A stretch of 34,485 nucleotides of DNA from Gemmatimonadota bacterium. GTDB lineage: Bacteria > Gemmatimonadota > Gemmatimonadetes > Longimicrobiales > RSA9. The DNA is taken from contig SLCC01000075.1 of NCBI GenBank assembly GCA_007126035.1, positions 1 through 34,485 of the forward strand, in the 5' to 3' direction. The translations under genes and the position numbers were made by a program. Positions 15,229-19,674 of this stretch are shown here, one piece after another. The notes under the pieces are model-generated. The model searched no databases. It was not told the origin of the DNA and was given only the letters and a program-made list of their open reading frames with translations. Every line of letters begins with the position of its first letter. The first letter of the stretch is position 1.

Positions 15229-18200
15229 ATGTCGCTACCGCGCTTCGCCGTCCGCCGGCCCGTGACCACGGGCATGATGATCGTCACCATCGTGATCTTG
15301 GGGGCGATATCCACCAGCATGATCAGCCTGGACCTGTGGCCCTCCTTCGAGCGCCCGGTCATCCGGGTGACGGTCCCCTACCCCGACGCCAGCCCGGCGG
15401 AGGTGGAGCGGAAGATCGTGCGCCCGCTGGAGGAGGAGCTGGGCACGGTGCGCCGGCTCGAGAGCATCACGTCCACGGCCAGCCAGAACCGGGCCCGGCT
15501 CCAGCTCGAGTTCGAGCCGGGCACCCACATGGACCTGGCCGCCCTCGAGGTCCGGGAGCGAGCCGAGCTGACCCGGAGCCGCCTGCCGGACGACGTGGAC
15601 CGGATCGACCTCAGTCGCTTCGGCACGGACGACCAGCCGGTCCTGCGCGGCGCTATCTCGTGGCAGGGTGAGCCCGCCCGGCTCACCGAGCTGATCGAGC
15701 GACGCGTCGAGCCCGCGATCCTGGCGGTACCGGGCGTCGCGGCGGTGGACTTCAGCGGTCTCGAGGCCCGGGAAGTCACGGTCGAACTGGACCAGGCCCG
15801 GATGCAGTCGGCGGGCGTGACCCTGTCCCAGATCGGCGCGGCGCTCTCCCGTGGTAACCAGGACGTGTCCGCCGGCGAGGTAGAGCTTGGCGACATGCGG
15901 TTCCTGGTCCGGGCGGAGGGTACGTTCCGCCGGCCCGAGGAGATCGAGGCCCTGCCGCTGGGCTCGAACGGCGTGCGCCTGGGCGACGTGGCCACCGTCC
16001 GCTACGACTACCCGGACCGGGACTTCTTCTTCAGGCTCAACGGCGAGAACGCGCGCCAGCTCCAGGTCTACAAGGACTCGGAGGCCAACATCGTGGAGGT
16101 GGCCCGGGAGGTCCGGGCCACGCTGGAGGCGTTGCGCGAGGAGCCGGGGCTGGCGGGCATCGGGTTCAGGTTCTGGCAGGACCAGTCGGACGGGATCCTC
16201 GAGGCGCTGCACGCACTGACCAGGGCAGGCGTCATTGGCGGGATCCTGGCCATCATCATCCTCTTCGTGTTCCTGCGACGCATCACGCCCACCCTCATCG
16301 TGGCGGCGTCGATCCCCGTGTCCCTCATCTTCACGGTGACCATCCTCCACGTGAGCGGTGCCAGCATCAACGTCATTACGCTGTCGGGCCTGATGCTGGC
16401 CGTGGGAATGCTCATCGACAATGCCGTGGTGGTGGTGGAGAACATCTTCCGGCACCGGGAGGCGGGCGACAGCGCCGAGGACGCCGCCGTCTCCGGCGCG
16501 TCGGAGGTGGGGCTGGCGATCCTGGCGGGCACGACCACGACCATCGTGGTGTTCATGCCCCTGCTGTTCATGACACCGAACATGATGGGCACCCAGATGA
16601 GGGCGTTCGGGATGTCCATCTCCTTCGCCATCGCCGCGAGCCTGGGCATCGCCTTCACCCTGGTCCCGCTGCTGGCCAAGTGGCTGCTCCGGGGCGAGAT
16701 GCCCGAGCCGGGCGGGCTGTTCACGAAGGTCTCGAACGGGTACCGATGCGTCCTGGACCGGCTGCTGGGCCGCCGTCTCCTCACCGGCCTCGCGGCCCTG
16801 GCGGTCTTCGCCGGCGGTGGGTACGCCGTCTGGTCGCTGCCCAGGGACCTCATGCCCAACGAGGACCGGCGCTTCGTCATGATGGGCGTCTCCACGCCGC
16901 GGGGCATGAGCGTGGAGGAGCGGAGCGAGCTGTTCGCGCAGGTGGAACTACTGCTGCTGGATAACGCCGAGCGGCTCGAGATCACCAACGTCAACGCCAT
17001 GTCATCGCCCAACTTCAGCAACATCATGATGTCGCTGAAGCCGTACTCGGAAGGCGCCCAGCTGTCGTCCGCCGAGATCAGCATGATGATCCAGGACGAG
17101 CTGCCCGTGGTGCCCGGCGTGCAATGGCGCCAGCGCCGGGCCTGGGGCATGGGCGGGCGAGTGAGCGTCCGGCTCATCGGCGAGAGCACCGACGTCCTGG
17201 CCGAGCTGGCCGAGCTAGTCGAGTGGCGCCTCGAGCGGGAGATCCCGGGCATCCAGAACCTGGACAACTCCCTCCAGGCCGGCAACGAGGAGATCCGGGT
17301 CCGGGTGAGCCGGGAAGCCGCCGAGCGACAGGGCCTCACGTCCCGCGACGTGGCCCAGGCCGTCTCCGGCGCCCTCCGTGGGCGCGCCGCCACACGATTC
17401 CGGTCCGGCGACCGCGAGGTGGAGGTGCTGGCCCAGCTCCGGGAAGAGGACCGCCTCTCCATCGACCAGCTCGGCACCCTGGCCATCGGCACGCCAGACG
17501 GGCGGAACATCCAGCTCAACACCTTGGCCGACCTGGTACTGGTGGGCGGGCCCCAGGACATCCGGCGGGAGAACCGGCTCACATCCGTGAGCGTGTCCGG
17601 CGAGGTGTCGCCGGGGCACAGCCGCGAGGCGGTCCAGGGCGAGGTCACCGCCCTCATGGAAACGCTGGAGCTGCCCGCTGGTTACAGCTGGGACCTTGGC
17701 CGGGGCTTCCGGGAGGAGCAACAGCAGCTCGGTGAGATGTTCTTCGCCATAATCCTGGCACTCGTGCTCATCTACCTGCTCCTGGCAGCCCTCTTCGAGA
17801 GCCTCCTGCTCCCGGTCATCATCTACTTCTCCATCTTCTTCGCCCTGCCCGGGATGGGCGTCGTGTTCCTGCTCACCGGCACGCCGATCTCCATCCTGTC
17901 GTTCCTGGGCATCCTCATCACCGTGGGGATCGTGGTGAACAACTCCATCGTCATGATCGACCTGGTGAATCAGCTCCGGGCCCGCGGTCAGGACAGGAAG
18001 ACCGCTTTGCTCAACGGCTGCCAGGCCAGGATGCGGCCCGTGCTGATGACATCACTCACCACCCTCATCGGGATGATGCCCATGGCCTTCTTCTCCGGCG
18101 AAGGGATGGGTCAGATGTTCTCGCCCATCGGTCAGGCGGTCATCGGAGGCCTCACCACCTCCATGATCCTGACCCTCCTGCTCACGCCCGTCCTCTACGC

Positions 18201-18303
18201 GTGGGTAGACGACATCGGCCTGTGGGGCGCCGCCGTCGCGCGACGGGCCCGCTGGGTGGCGGCGGGGCGGCCCCGGGTACCGGCACGGCAGGCTGCAGAG
18301 TAG
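15229..18303 (+). CDS. RND-family inner-membrane efflux pump, second of two
   Basis: This 1024-residue pump starts three bases after the stop of the first pump and is certainly co-transcribed with it. It begins MSLPRFAVRRPVTTGMMIVTIVILG and has the usual PYPDASPAEVERKIVRPLEEEL, helix-4 VGMLIDNAVVVVENIFRHRE and helix-10 IVVNNSIVMIDLVNQLRARG signatures. It is clearly diverged from its neighbour, so this is not a recent duplication. With one adaptor and one outer-membrane channel in the operon, the two pumps may form a mixed trimer like MdtB/MdtC or alternate on one adaptor. The stop codon lies within an inverted repeat shared with the convergent metK gene. Confidence 0.93.
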   Translation: MSLPRFAVRRPVTTGMMIVTIVILGAISTSMISLDLWPSFERPVIRVTVPYPDASPAEVERKIVRPLEEELGTVRRLESITSTASQNRARLQLEFEPGTHMDLAALEVRERAELTRSRLPDDVDRIDLSRFGTDDQPVLRGAISWQGEPARLTELIERRVEPAILAVPGVAAVDFSGLEAREVTVELDQARMQSAGVTLSQIGAALSRGNQDVSAGEVELGDMRFLVRAEGTFRRPEEIEALPLGSNGVRLGDVATVRYDYPDRDFFFRLNGENARQLQVYKDSEANIVEVAREVRATLEALREEPGLAGIGFRFWQDQSDGILEALHALTRAGVIGGILAIIILFVFLRRITPTLIVAASIPVSLIFTVTILHVSGASINVITLSGLMLAVGMLIDNAVVVVENIFRHREAGDSAEDAAVSGASEVGLAILAGTTTTIVVFMPLLFMTPNMMGTQMRAFGMSISFAIAASLGIAFTLVPLLAKWLLRGEMPEPGGLFTKVSNGYRCVLDRLLGRRLLTGLAALAVFAGGGYAVWSLPRDLMPNEDRRFVMMGVSTPRGMSVEERSELFAQVELLLLDNAERLEITNVNAMSSPNFSNIMMSLKPYSEGAQLSSAEISMMIQDELPVVPGVQWRQRRAWGMGGRVSVRLIGESTDVLAELAELVEWRLEREIPGIQNLDNSLQAGNEEIRVRVSREAAERQGLTSRDVAQAVSGALRGRAATRFRSGDREVEVLAQLREEDRLSIDQLGTLAIGTPDGRNIQLNTLADLVLVGGPQDIRRENRLTSVSVSGEVSPGHSREAVQGEVTALMETLELPAGYSWDLGRGFREEQQQLGEMFFAIILALVLIYLLLAALFESLLLPVIIYFSIFFALPGMGVVFLLTGTPISILSFLGILITVGIVVNNSIVMIDLVNQLRARGQDRKTALLNGCQARMRPVLMTSLTTLIGMMPMAFFSGEGMGQMFSPIGQAVIGGLTTSMILTLLLTPVLYAWVDDIGLWGAAVARRARWVAAGRPRVPARQAAE

Positions 18304-18323
18304 GAACGACGATCAGCGTTCCT
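18302..18323. terminator. Inverted repeat holding both convergent stop codons
   Basis: AGGAACG (18302-18308) and CGTTCCT (18317-18323) are perfect arms around an 8-nt loop. The TAG of the second RND gene overlaps the left arm and the TGA of metK lies at the loop edge on the other strand. The hairpin would form in both transcripts and may end both; no T-run is present. Confidence 0.4.
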
Positions 18324-19494
18324 CCCAGGGCAACCCCGGCCGCCCGAAGTGGCCGTAGTTGGTGGTGGCGCGGTAGATGGGTCGGGCCAGCTCGAACTGC
18401 TCGATTATGGCGCCGGGGCGGAAGTCGAAGCGGCTGACGAAGTCGGCGGCTTCGCGATCGTCGCCGGTGCCGAAGGTATCGACCGCCACAGAAACCGGCC
18501 GGGCCTGACCGATGGCGTATGAGACCTGGATCTCGGCGCGGCGGGCCAGGCCCCGGCGCACCAGCTCCCGTGCTATCCAGCGGCAGAAGTAGGTCCCGCT
18601 CCGGTCCACCTTGGTGGGGTCCTTGCCGCTGAACGCTCCACCGCCGTGCCGTGCCATGCCGCCGTAGGTGTCCACGATGGTCTTGCGGCCGGTTACGCCG
18701 GCATCGGCGGACGGGCCGCCGTGCGTCCATTCCCCAGCCGGGTTGACGGTTATGCCGCCGGTTACGGGGGCCAGGTCGCCGAGGATCCGGGGTACCAGGT
18801 CGAGGCGCACGTACTCGTCCACGGTGCCCAGCGCGCCCGGGGCGTGCTGGGTCGAGACGAGGACATCGGTCACGGCCACGGGCTGGCCATCCCGGTACTC
18901 GACCGAGACCTGTGTCTTGCCATCGGGTCGGAGCCAGTCGTGACCACCGCGTCGGTCCTGGGCCAGCGCGGCGGCCAGGCGGTGCGCCAGGAGGATGGGC
19001 AGCGGCATGAGCTCGGGCGTCTCGTCGGTGGCGTACCCGAACATGATACCCTGATCACCGGCACCCAGCTCACCGGCTTCGCCACCCTTGACACCGGAAG
19101 CGATCTCGTGTGACTGGCGGGTGATGAGCACCTGGATCCGGACGCCGTCGGCATTGAAGGGCTCGCCGGGATCCACATACCCTGCGCTGCGAACGGCGTC
19201 CCGAGCAACCTGCCGGTAGTCCACCACGCACCCCTCAGGCAGCGACACCTCGCCGGCCAGCACCACCGTCTCACTCTTGACCAGCGTCTCACACGCCACC
19301 CTGGCCCCGGGGTCCTGCTCCAGACACGCGTCCAGCACACTGTCGGAGATGAGGTCAGACACCTTGTCCGGGTGTCCTTCCGTTACCGACTCCGACGTGA
19401 ATACGAACGTGGAGCCCGTGCGAGGGTCCCGGAGTTGCCCGGCGGCCATCGCCTCTTCGGTGTCGGAGGCCGGGGTCGTGGTGCTCTTGCTCAT
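18313..19494 (-). CDS. metK: S-adenosylmethionine synthetase
   Basis: This cytoplasmic enzyme makes S-adenosylmethionine from methionine and ATP, releasing phosphate and diphosphate. The 393-residue length fits the bacterial family (~384-400). Visible signatures are FVFTSESVTEGHPDKVSD (ATP and Mg2+ binding, His41 and Asp43), the GAGDQGIMFGYATDE hexapeptide region and the P-loop-like GGAFSGKDPTKVDRS. KTQVSVEYRDG and GPSADAGVTGRKTIVDTYGG are also present. The ATG at 19494 has AGGAG seven bases upstream; the frame is open further but that part is the structured leader. The leader contains a sigma70 promoter, a SAM-II-like aptamer and a terminator, consistent with feedback control by the enzyme's own product. 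Confidence 0.97.
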   Translation of the reverse strand: MSKSTTTPASDTEEAMAAGQLRDPRTGSTFVFTSESVTEGHPDKVSDLISDSVLDACLEQDPGARVACETLVKSETVVLAGEVSLPEGCVVDYRQVARDAVRSAGYVDPGEPFNADGVRIQVLITRQSHEIASGVKGGEAGELGAGDQGIMFGYATDETPELMPLPILLAHRLAAALAQDRRGGHDWLRPDGKTQVSVEYRDGQPVAVTDVLVSTQHAPGALGTVDEYVRLDLVPRILGDLAPVTGGITVNPAGEWTHGGPSADAGVTGRKTIVDTYGGMARHGGGAFSGKDPTKVDRSGTYFCRWIARELVRRGLARRAEIQVSYAIGQARPVSVAVDTFGTGDDREAADFVSRFDFRPGAIIEQFELARPIYRATTNYGHFGRPGLPWEER

Positions 19495-19535
19495 TCCTGT
19501 CTCCTCTTGCGGCTGGGACGGCTGGTATGGACATG

Positions 19536-19567
19536 AAAAAGGCCCCGCAGCGAGTCCGCGCGGGGCC
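19536..19567 (-). terminator. Intrinsic terminator in the metK leader
   Basis: On the minus strand GGCCCCGC (19567-19560) pairs perfectly with GCGGGGCC (19548-19541); an inner GCG/CGC adds to the stem. Five T residues (19540-19536) and a C follow immediately. It sits between the aptamer-like element and the metK ribosome-binding site, 42 bases before the start codon, so read-through is required for metK expression. Confidence 0.8.
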
Positions 19568-19572
19568 GATCC

Positions 19573-19626
19573 GAGCGGTTTAGCACGTTGGTCACCCGGA
19601 TGCAATCGCCACAACTCGCCGGGGTG
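19573..19626 (-). ncRNA. SAM-II-like riboswitch aptamer upstream of metK
   Basis: Read on the minus strand, C19626-G19619 (CACCCCGG) pairs with C19599-G19593 (CCGGGTG) as stem P1 with one bulged C. The 19-nt loop ends in ATTGCAT, and the 3' tail reads GACCAACGTGCTAAACCGC. This follows the SAM-II layout as I remember it: P1, an ~18-nt loop ending in AUUGCA, GUGA after P1, and GCUAAA in the tail. The pseudoknot can form in two pieces: loop GTGG (19612-19609) with tail CCGC (19578-19575), and loop GCAT (19603-19600) with tail GTGC (19586-19583). A terminator follows at once, and the downstream gene makes SAM. The assignment is by eye, without a covariance search. Confidence 0.72.
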
Positions 19627-19662
19627 CCGGTCATCAGCACGGGTAATGATACAATGACCGGC
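19626..19662. promoter_or_regulatory. 9-bp inverted repeat flanking the metK -10 box (possible operator)
   Basis: GCCGGTCAT (minus 19662-19654) and ATGACCGGC (19634-19626) are perfect arms around 19 bases. One arm lies in the promoter spacer and the other just after the predicted start site, so most of it cannot be one RNA hairpin if the predicted promoter is used. The position fits a repressor operator. Confidence 0.4.
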
Positions 19663-19674
19663 AGCAGCTAACAA
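19646..19674 (-). promoter_or_regulatory. metK promoter (sigma70-type)
   Basis: On the minus strand TTGTTA (19674-19669) and TATCAT (19651-19646) are separated by exactly 17 bases; the -10 matches the consensus in five of six positions and the -35 in four. Transcription would start near 19639, about 13 bases before the aptamer, so the leader RNA would begin almost directly with the riboswitch. Confidence 0.6.

Follow-up and report, generated by a model that had tools for sequence, protein, structure and literature searches.

Leader architecture upstream of metK

The window analysed here, a 34,485-nucleotide stretch of a Gemmatimonadota genome, carries on its minus strand a metK gene whose product is a full S-adenosylmethionine synthetase, as the Pfam N, M and C domains are all present. 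It is convergent to an AcrB-type pump gene (15229-18303). Upstream of metK, a SAM-II aptamer-like fold on the minus strand (19626-19575) is followed by an intrinsic terminator. The features of this leader, with loop positions numbered by alignment to 2QWY, are:

19669..19674, minus strand: -35 box TTGTTA, with a -35-like box at the same place in relatives
19646..19651, minus strand: -10 box TATCAT, 17-nt spacer to the -35 box, sigma-70-like promoter
19619..19626, minus strand: P1 5' strand CACCCCGG, core pairs at 19623-19619, extended by 19626-19625 across a bulged C
19600..19618, minus strand: L1 loop CGAGTTGTGGCGATTGCAT, with G8 at 19617, A9 at 19616, position 10 (G, not U) at 19615, U11 at 19614, U12 at 19613, U20 at 19605, U21 at 19604, G22 at 19603 and C23 at 19602
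19607..19609, minus strand: distal pseudoknot helix, 5' side, GCG
19593..19599, minus strand: P1 3' strand CCGGGTG, pairing with the P1 5' strand
19579..19584, minus strand: GCTAAA, 3' core of the pseudoknot, invariant in 42 distinct relatives, with G42 at 19584, C43 at 19583, U44 at 19582, A45 at 19581, A46 at 19580 and A47 at 19579
Inner pseudoknot pairs, minus strand: C19602-G19584, G19603-C19583, U19604-A19581 and U19605-A19580
19575..19577, minus strand: distal pseudoknot helix, 3' side, CGC
19578-19571, minus strand: tail CCGCTCGG between GCTAAA and the terminator
19571..19578, minus strand: antiterminator 5' strand CCGC-T-CGG, overlapping the pseudoknot 3' strand
19556..19563, minus strand: antiterminator 3' strand CCG-C-GCGG, overlapping the terminator 5' arm
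19541..19567, minus strand: intrinsic terminator hairpin GGCCCCGCGCGGACTCGCTGCGGGGCC, 8-bp stem plus 3 inner pairs, -22.7 kcal/mol
19536..19540, minus strand: terminator T run TTTTT
19501..19508, minus strand: putative purine-rich ribosome-binding site AAGAGGAG
18313..19494, minus strand: metK, S-adenosylmethionine synthetase, 393 aa, ATG at 19494, Pfam S-AdoMet_synt N/M/C

Transcription is predicted to start a few bases past the -10 box, at about 19639, and the -35/-10-like boxes of relatives lie 18-31 nt (mostly 24-31) before P1. L1 contains GCGATTGC at 19609-19602 and ends in GCGATTGCAT, and an A-rich linker lies 5' of GCTAAA. One promoter-like and one terminator-like site occur in the stretch, compared with 0.0 and 0.1 in shuffles. 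The promoter at 19674-19669 and 19651-19646, the P1 helix (19626-19619 with 19599-19593) and the 8-bp terminator stem with five Ts before the metK ribosome-binding site had all been recognized in a preliminary description of the DNA and are confirmed here. Its core reading, a SAM-II-class aptamer with an intrinsic terminator as the putative control of metK, is well supported by homology, covariation, conservation of the binding pocket and gene context.

Relationship to SAM-II riboswitches

At the gathering threshold, Rfam models matched neither the window nor any of 18 relative loci. A permissive search of 301 bp returned SAM_alpha/SAM-II (RF00521) as the best family, at full length and on the correct strand, with a score of 16.2 bits where the cut-off is 36 (E 0.21). 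The gathering threshold is a curator's detection cut-off rather than a structural feature and was not taken to exclude membership in SAM-II. The SAM-V, SAM-SAH, SAM-I and SAM-III models gave no match to the 301-bp stretch of the window at E up to 10, and neither SAM-V nor the SAM-II long loops model (RF01726) matched the window (E up to 10) or 20 related leaders (E up to 5). Elsewhere in the genome of the window, RF00521 gave chance-level matches only.

While the Rfam score alone is not decisive, the metK leaders of relatives settle the homology to SAM-II. The same element was present in 12 further metK leaders among the 40 related genomes examined, and RF00521 independently ranked first or close to first among the sub-threshold families in nearly all of these, and in no fewer than 12 related leaders overall. 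R3, a covariance model built from 14 sequences with the window left out, scored the window element at 59.5 bits (E 1e-13 across the whole 3.9-Mb genome), and this was the only significant site there. A model of the window-type element (R1) was run against 395 genomes from the phylum and matched in 168 at E 0.1. Bridging loci score high with both the new model and RF00521 (e.g. 44.4 and 42.8 bits on G251:C9), and the aligned series runs unbroken from the form in the window to the canonical CGUGG..GAUUUG..AUUGC..CCACGUUAAACAAGUCGCUAAA. Contigs matching the DNA pattern include those of Gemmatimonadetes/Gemmatimonadota, Gemmatimonas and Longimicrobium; pattern matches outside Gemmatimonadota to which R1 gave no match or was not applied were treated as probable chance. 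Many Gemmatimonadota carry this element in front of metK, and it passes by degrees into copies over the Rfam cut-off. Of 298 genomes sampled from the phylum, 174 have a match to RF00521 itself above that cut-off, and the host, which had been called notable for a SAM-II element, is thus less unusual than was claimed.

P1 and the pseudoknot in relatives

Among 42 distinct sequences, the five core pairs of P1 were paired in 100% of cells, with compensatory changes in three of the five, and variants with perfect partners include CCCGG/CCGGG, CGCGG/CCGCG, CGUGG/CCACG and CCCAG/CUGGG. Over the whole structure 19 cells were changed on both sides versus 3.6 in shuffles (0 of 500 shuffles were as high), and sliding the partners out of register lowered pairing from 98.6% to 30-49%. 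Of the two outcomes that together would speak against a SAM riboswitch, the lack of a significant Rfam match was seen at the gathering threshold and a lack of covariation in relatives clearly was not.

The inner pseudoknot UUGC:GC(U)AA is invariant in the 42 sequences and, as it never varies, gives no evidence of covariation; part of this uniformity comes from how the relatives were chosen, as they were gathered with a model of this very element. The distal helix GCG:CGC was paired in 94% of cells and is little compensated because it hardly varies, with one A-U compensation (L092) and one shifted register (L080). L1 and the 3' tail are predicted to form an H-type pseudoknot for which direct covariation support is thin. 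Two pseudoknot pairings had been proposed originally. The distal one, of GTGG with CCGC in loop and tail, is not confirmed, as its partner columns are broken in many relatives and the conserved helix is GCG 19609-19607 with CGC 19577-19575.

Terminator, candidate antiterminator and proposed mechanism

The GC-rich hairpin and T run lie between the aptamer and metK, as in an attenuator. Stable hairpins with T-rich tails are likewise found directly 3' of most copies of the aptamer, and a few copies have weak or unrecognizable terminators. In most leaders, the region from the end of GCUAAA to the terminator 5' arm can fold into an alternative hairpin of the form CCGC-U-CGGGA...UCCCG-C-GCGG, which begins at the first base past GCUAAA or one later in most of 25 leaders. 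In the window this hairpin pairs CCGC-U-CGG with CCG-C-GCGG (19578-19571:19563-19556, -11.4 kcal/mol). Changes on both of its sides occur in several relatives: CGAA:UUCG (L145), CGAG:CUCG (L086), CGCGUGGGA:UCCCGUGCG (L088) and GCGC:GCGC (L076). Leaders were compared by direct duplex and fold comparison. The duplex of each tail with its own arm reached -14.7, compared with -13.6 +/- 0.34 for permuted arms (p 0.0013, 24 leaders) and -8.7 +/- 0.5 for shuffled arms; as the leaders are interrelated, the permutation p-values are not strict probabilities. Because its 5' side is the 3' strand of the pseudoknot and its 3' side is the 5' arm of the terminator, this putative antiterminator is exclusive with both aptamer and terminator.

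Sequence and comparison establish the predicted fold and its SAM-II homology, the promoter, the terminator, the gene context and the complementarity and covariation of the alternative hairpin. The element is very probably a cis-acting riboswitch of the SAM-II class that acts as an OFF switch on metK by transcription attenuation; SAM binding, the direction of control and a kinetic competition between the hairpins are what we infer. When SAM is bound, the tail strand (GCUAAA plus CGC) would be held by P1 and the H-type pseudoknot and could then not fold onto the terminator 5' arm, so that the hairpin at 19567-19541 and its T run would form and transcription would stop before metK. At low SAM, the freed tail CCGCUCGG would pair locally with the emerging CCGCGCGG of the terminator 5' arm, and this pairing would delay or block the terminator and let the polymerase read into metK. 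As the terminator (-22.7 kcal/mol) is far stabler than the antiterminator (-11.4), the competition between the hairpins would have to be kinetic. The conserved hairpin of tail and arm would explain in a simple way how termination can be driven by a small aptamer of the pseudoknot type.

The preliminary description had offered another pairing as a possible antiterminator, between CGGG in the P1 3' strand and CCCG in the terminator 5' arm. Four base pairs are indeed possible in the window, and P1 3' strands and terminator arms are GC-rich in every leader. Across 31 leaders, however, the P1 3' strand pairs with its own arm no better than with permuted arms (-8.2 vs -8.8, p 0.93), comparative support is absent, and the pairing would break P1, which is reported to be protected without SAM in the metX SAM-II riboswitch (PMC10907184). 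We consider this route improbable, and comparison of leaders favours, as candidate antiterminator, a local hairpin between the 3' strand of the pseudoknot and the 5' arm of the terminator. The window leader also has a competing helix of the P1 3' strand with the tail and a long-range fold, in which P1 5'/L1 pairs with the terminator 3' arm, within 0.4 kcal/mol of the terminator-bearing fold; relatives do not conserve them. As the minimum-energy fold retains the terminator in nearly all relatives, both were dropped as a general mechanism.

In some leaders (L102, L092, L079) the terminator 5' arm or loop holds a complement of the aptamer loop GCGAUUGC, e.g. GGCAAUCGC, which suggests other antiterminator designs.

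The predicted binding pocket

Thirteen pocket nucleotides are reported as fully conserved in SAM-II, namely U10, U11, U12, U20, U21, G22, C23, G42, C43, U44, A45, A46 and A47 in the numbering of the metX structure (PMC3764141). Twelve of them are present in the window, the exception being U10, which is replaced by G. This replacement could mark a SAM-II fold with an altered or relaxed ligand preference: despite the reported full conservation of U10, the window and eight other relatives among the 42 distinct sequences have G there, and SAM-I variants with a changed ligand provide a precedent (PMC10853860). Such a shift is nevertheless unlikely, as all listed direct contacts to SAM (U11, U21, G22, U44 and A47) are retained, the gene downstream is metK, and relatives with G10 and with U10 alike precede metK.

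A third form of the element (CGACUUGACGG .. CCGUCUAAGUCG) occurs in metK leaders of the window's own family (L016:1263-1352, L017:1146-1236 and L010). It seems to have no equivalent of A47, which contacts the methionine part of SAM, and its binding is possibly altered.

Gene context and further metK copies

Nineteen of the 42 distinct elements lie directly upstream of metK, and others precede probable MetX (a MetX-like alpha/beta hydrolase) and MetH genes, with names read by eye. The genome of the window contains two further metK genes, at G000:C156:2279-3379 and G000:C111:53913-54989, one of them on a short 6.6-kb contig. One copy is 67% and one 58% identical to the one in the window. The 67% copy closely follows a coding region and the 58% copy follows a ptsI-like gene (identified by eye). 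Neither the SAM-II motif nor R3 was matched in the upstream stretches inspected of these two genes, so the window copy appears to be the regulated one among the three.

These additional copies also bear on the idea of a constitutive leader, in which a decayed SAM-II relic is left behind and the terminator attenuates metK regardless of SAM. Two other metK genes could have relaxed the regulation of the window copy, and the low Rfam score would fit decay. Against this, the pocket core is intact, P1 is compensated, and none of promoter, aptamer, antiterminator and terminator has been lost, which makes a relic distinctly improbable. A chance hairpin and terminator with no aptamer, which the Rfam E of 0.21 taken alone would allow, has next to no probability given the R3 match at E 1e-13 and the conservation with covariation in many genomes.

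Some elements have other surroundings. SAM-II-type elements in L084 and L087 precede small cysteine-rich proteins with weak Pfam similarity to zinc-ribbon/anti-TRAP-like families. One genome (G296) contains four element matches, and two of the strong ones share one contig. A strong match was also found in a record of a Euryarchaeota archaeon (RS442; L145), where it has the gene neighbour that is also seen in a Gemmatimonadetes MAG (L091/L123); the archaeal MAG is probably mislabelled or misbinned.

Comparison with known SAM-II systems

The element in the window shares with RF00521 and the metX aptamer (2QWY) an H-type pseudoknot, a short P1, a U-rich L1, the UUGC/GCUAAA core and the A-rich linker, as well as a downstream gene of the SAM cycle (metK) and a terminator platform as in many SAM-II riboswitches. 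It differs from RF00521 by an L1 that two 2-nt gaps make shorter than in the Rfam consensus, by G at position 10, by the distal helix GCG:CGC and by its score of 16.2 bits against the cut-off of 36. The target gene also differs, as the listed proteobacterial SAM-II targets are metX, metY and metA (PMC4239095), and metK in Proteobacteria is under other SAM riboswitches (PMC4239095). The metZ SAM-II of Sinorhizobium meliloti is alike in its predicted SAM-dependent Rho-independent termination before a methionine-pathway gene (PMC9373788), although that gene is not metK. SAM-V has a related pseudoknot architecture and ligand-binding mode (PMC9481103), but its model did not match the window at E up to 10.

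SAM-II is known from alpha- and gammaproteobacteria and Bacteroidetes, and it was pointed out in 2007 that in alpha- and betaproteobacteria it usually occurs together with a terminator (PMC2258182; also PMC9373788). The terminator arrangement, like the host, had been presented as notable; since SAM-II with transcription terminators has long been known (PMC2258182, PMC9373788), this was an overstatement. Our literature search, which was not exhaustive, found no paper joining a SAM-II riboswitch with Gemmatimonadetes, although automated annotation with Rfam would already pick up many of the SAM-II copies in Gemmatimonadota. The window element is a member of the known SAM-II class that is missed by the Rfam cut-off and whose target gene is not among the listed ones. 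What is new is a sub-threshold SAM-II subfamily on metK, as neither host nor terminator is exotic. Most descriptions of SAM-II come from Proteobacteria, Bacteroidetes and marine metagenomes; the present data suggest that it is a common regulator in Gemmatimonadota, that the standard model misses one of its branches, and that SAM synthetase itself can be under its control.

A second element in Longimicrobiaceae

The metK leaders of Longimicrobiaceae often contain a second element (type B) downstream of the SAM-II terminator, in most cases accompanied by a hairpin of its own (e.g. L004:1312-1386, L006:2720-2795, L144:6053-6127, L092:1060-1137 and others). Its fold is an H-type pseudoknot of the pattern GCUUUGA..GACAGCUUGGCGG .. 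CCGCCUAAAGCGUCG, in which the core is UUG/CUAAA and the tail helix is longer. The two sides of the tail helix change in step (GGCGG:CCGCC, GGUGG:CCACC, GGUGAG:CUCACC), and both-sided changes also occur in its P1. Type B was found in 15 of the 395 genomes of the phylum at E 0.01, and no SAM family in Rfam matched the type B stretches at E up to 5. A search for type B gave no significant match in the window, where the SAM-II element is a single copy. Tandem SAM-II (44 cases) and pairs of SAM-II with SAM-V have been described (PMC9481103), and tandem SAM-II resembles the pairs of the element with type B in Longimicrobiaceae, in contrast to the single copy in the window. Tentatively, the Longimicrobiales-type elements might represent an unlisted branch of SAM-II, with G at position 10 and the tail itself as antiterminator in a fixed expression platform, often in tandem with type B, which is perhaps a separate SAM-sensing class. 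Type B, as seen in these relatives, is a candidate for an RNA family that Rfam lacks.

Type B also precedes genes with no evident link to methionine (L161, L162, L163 and L092). Its neighbours at these loci are a small membrane protein and a protein family (LDFRPASYTDFGDPVALALNGI...) that Pfam does not match.
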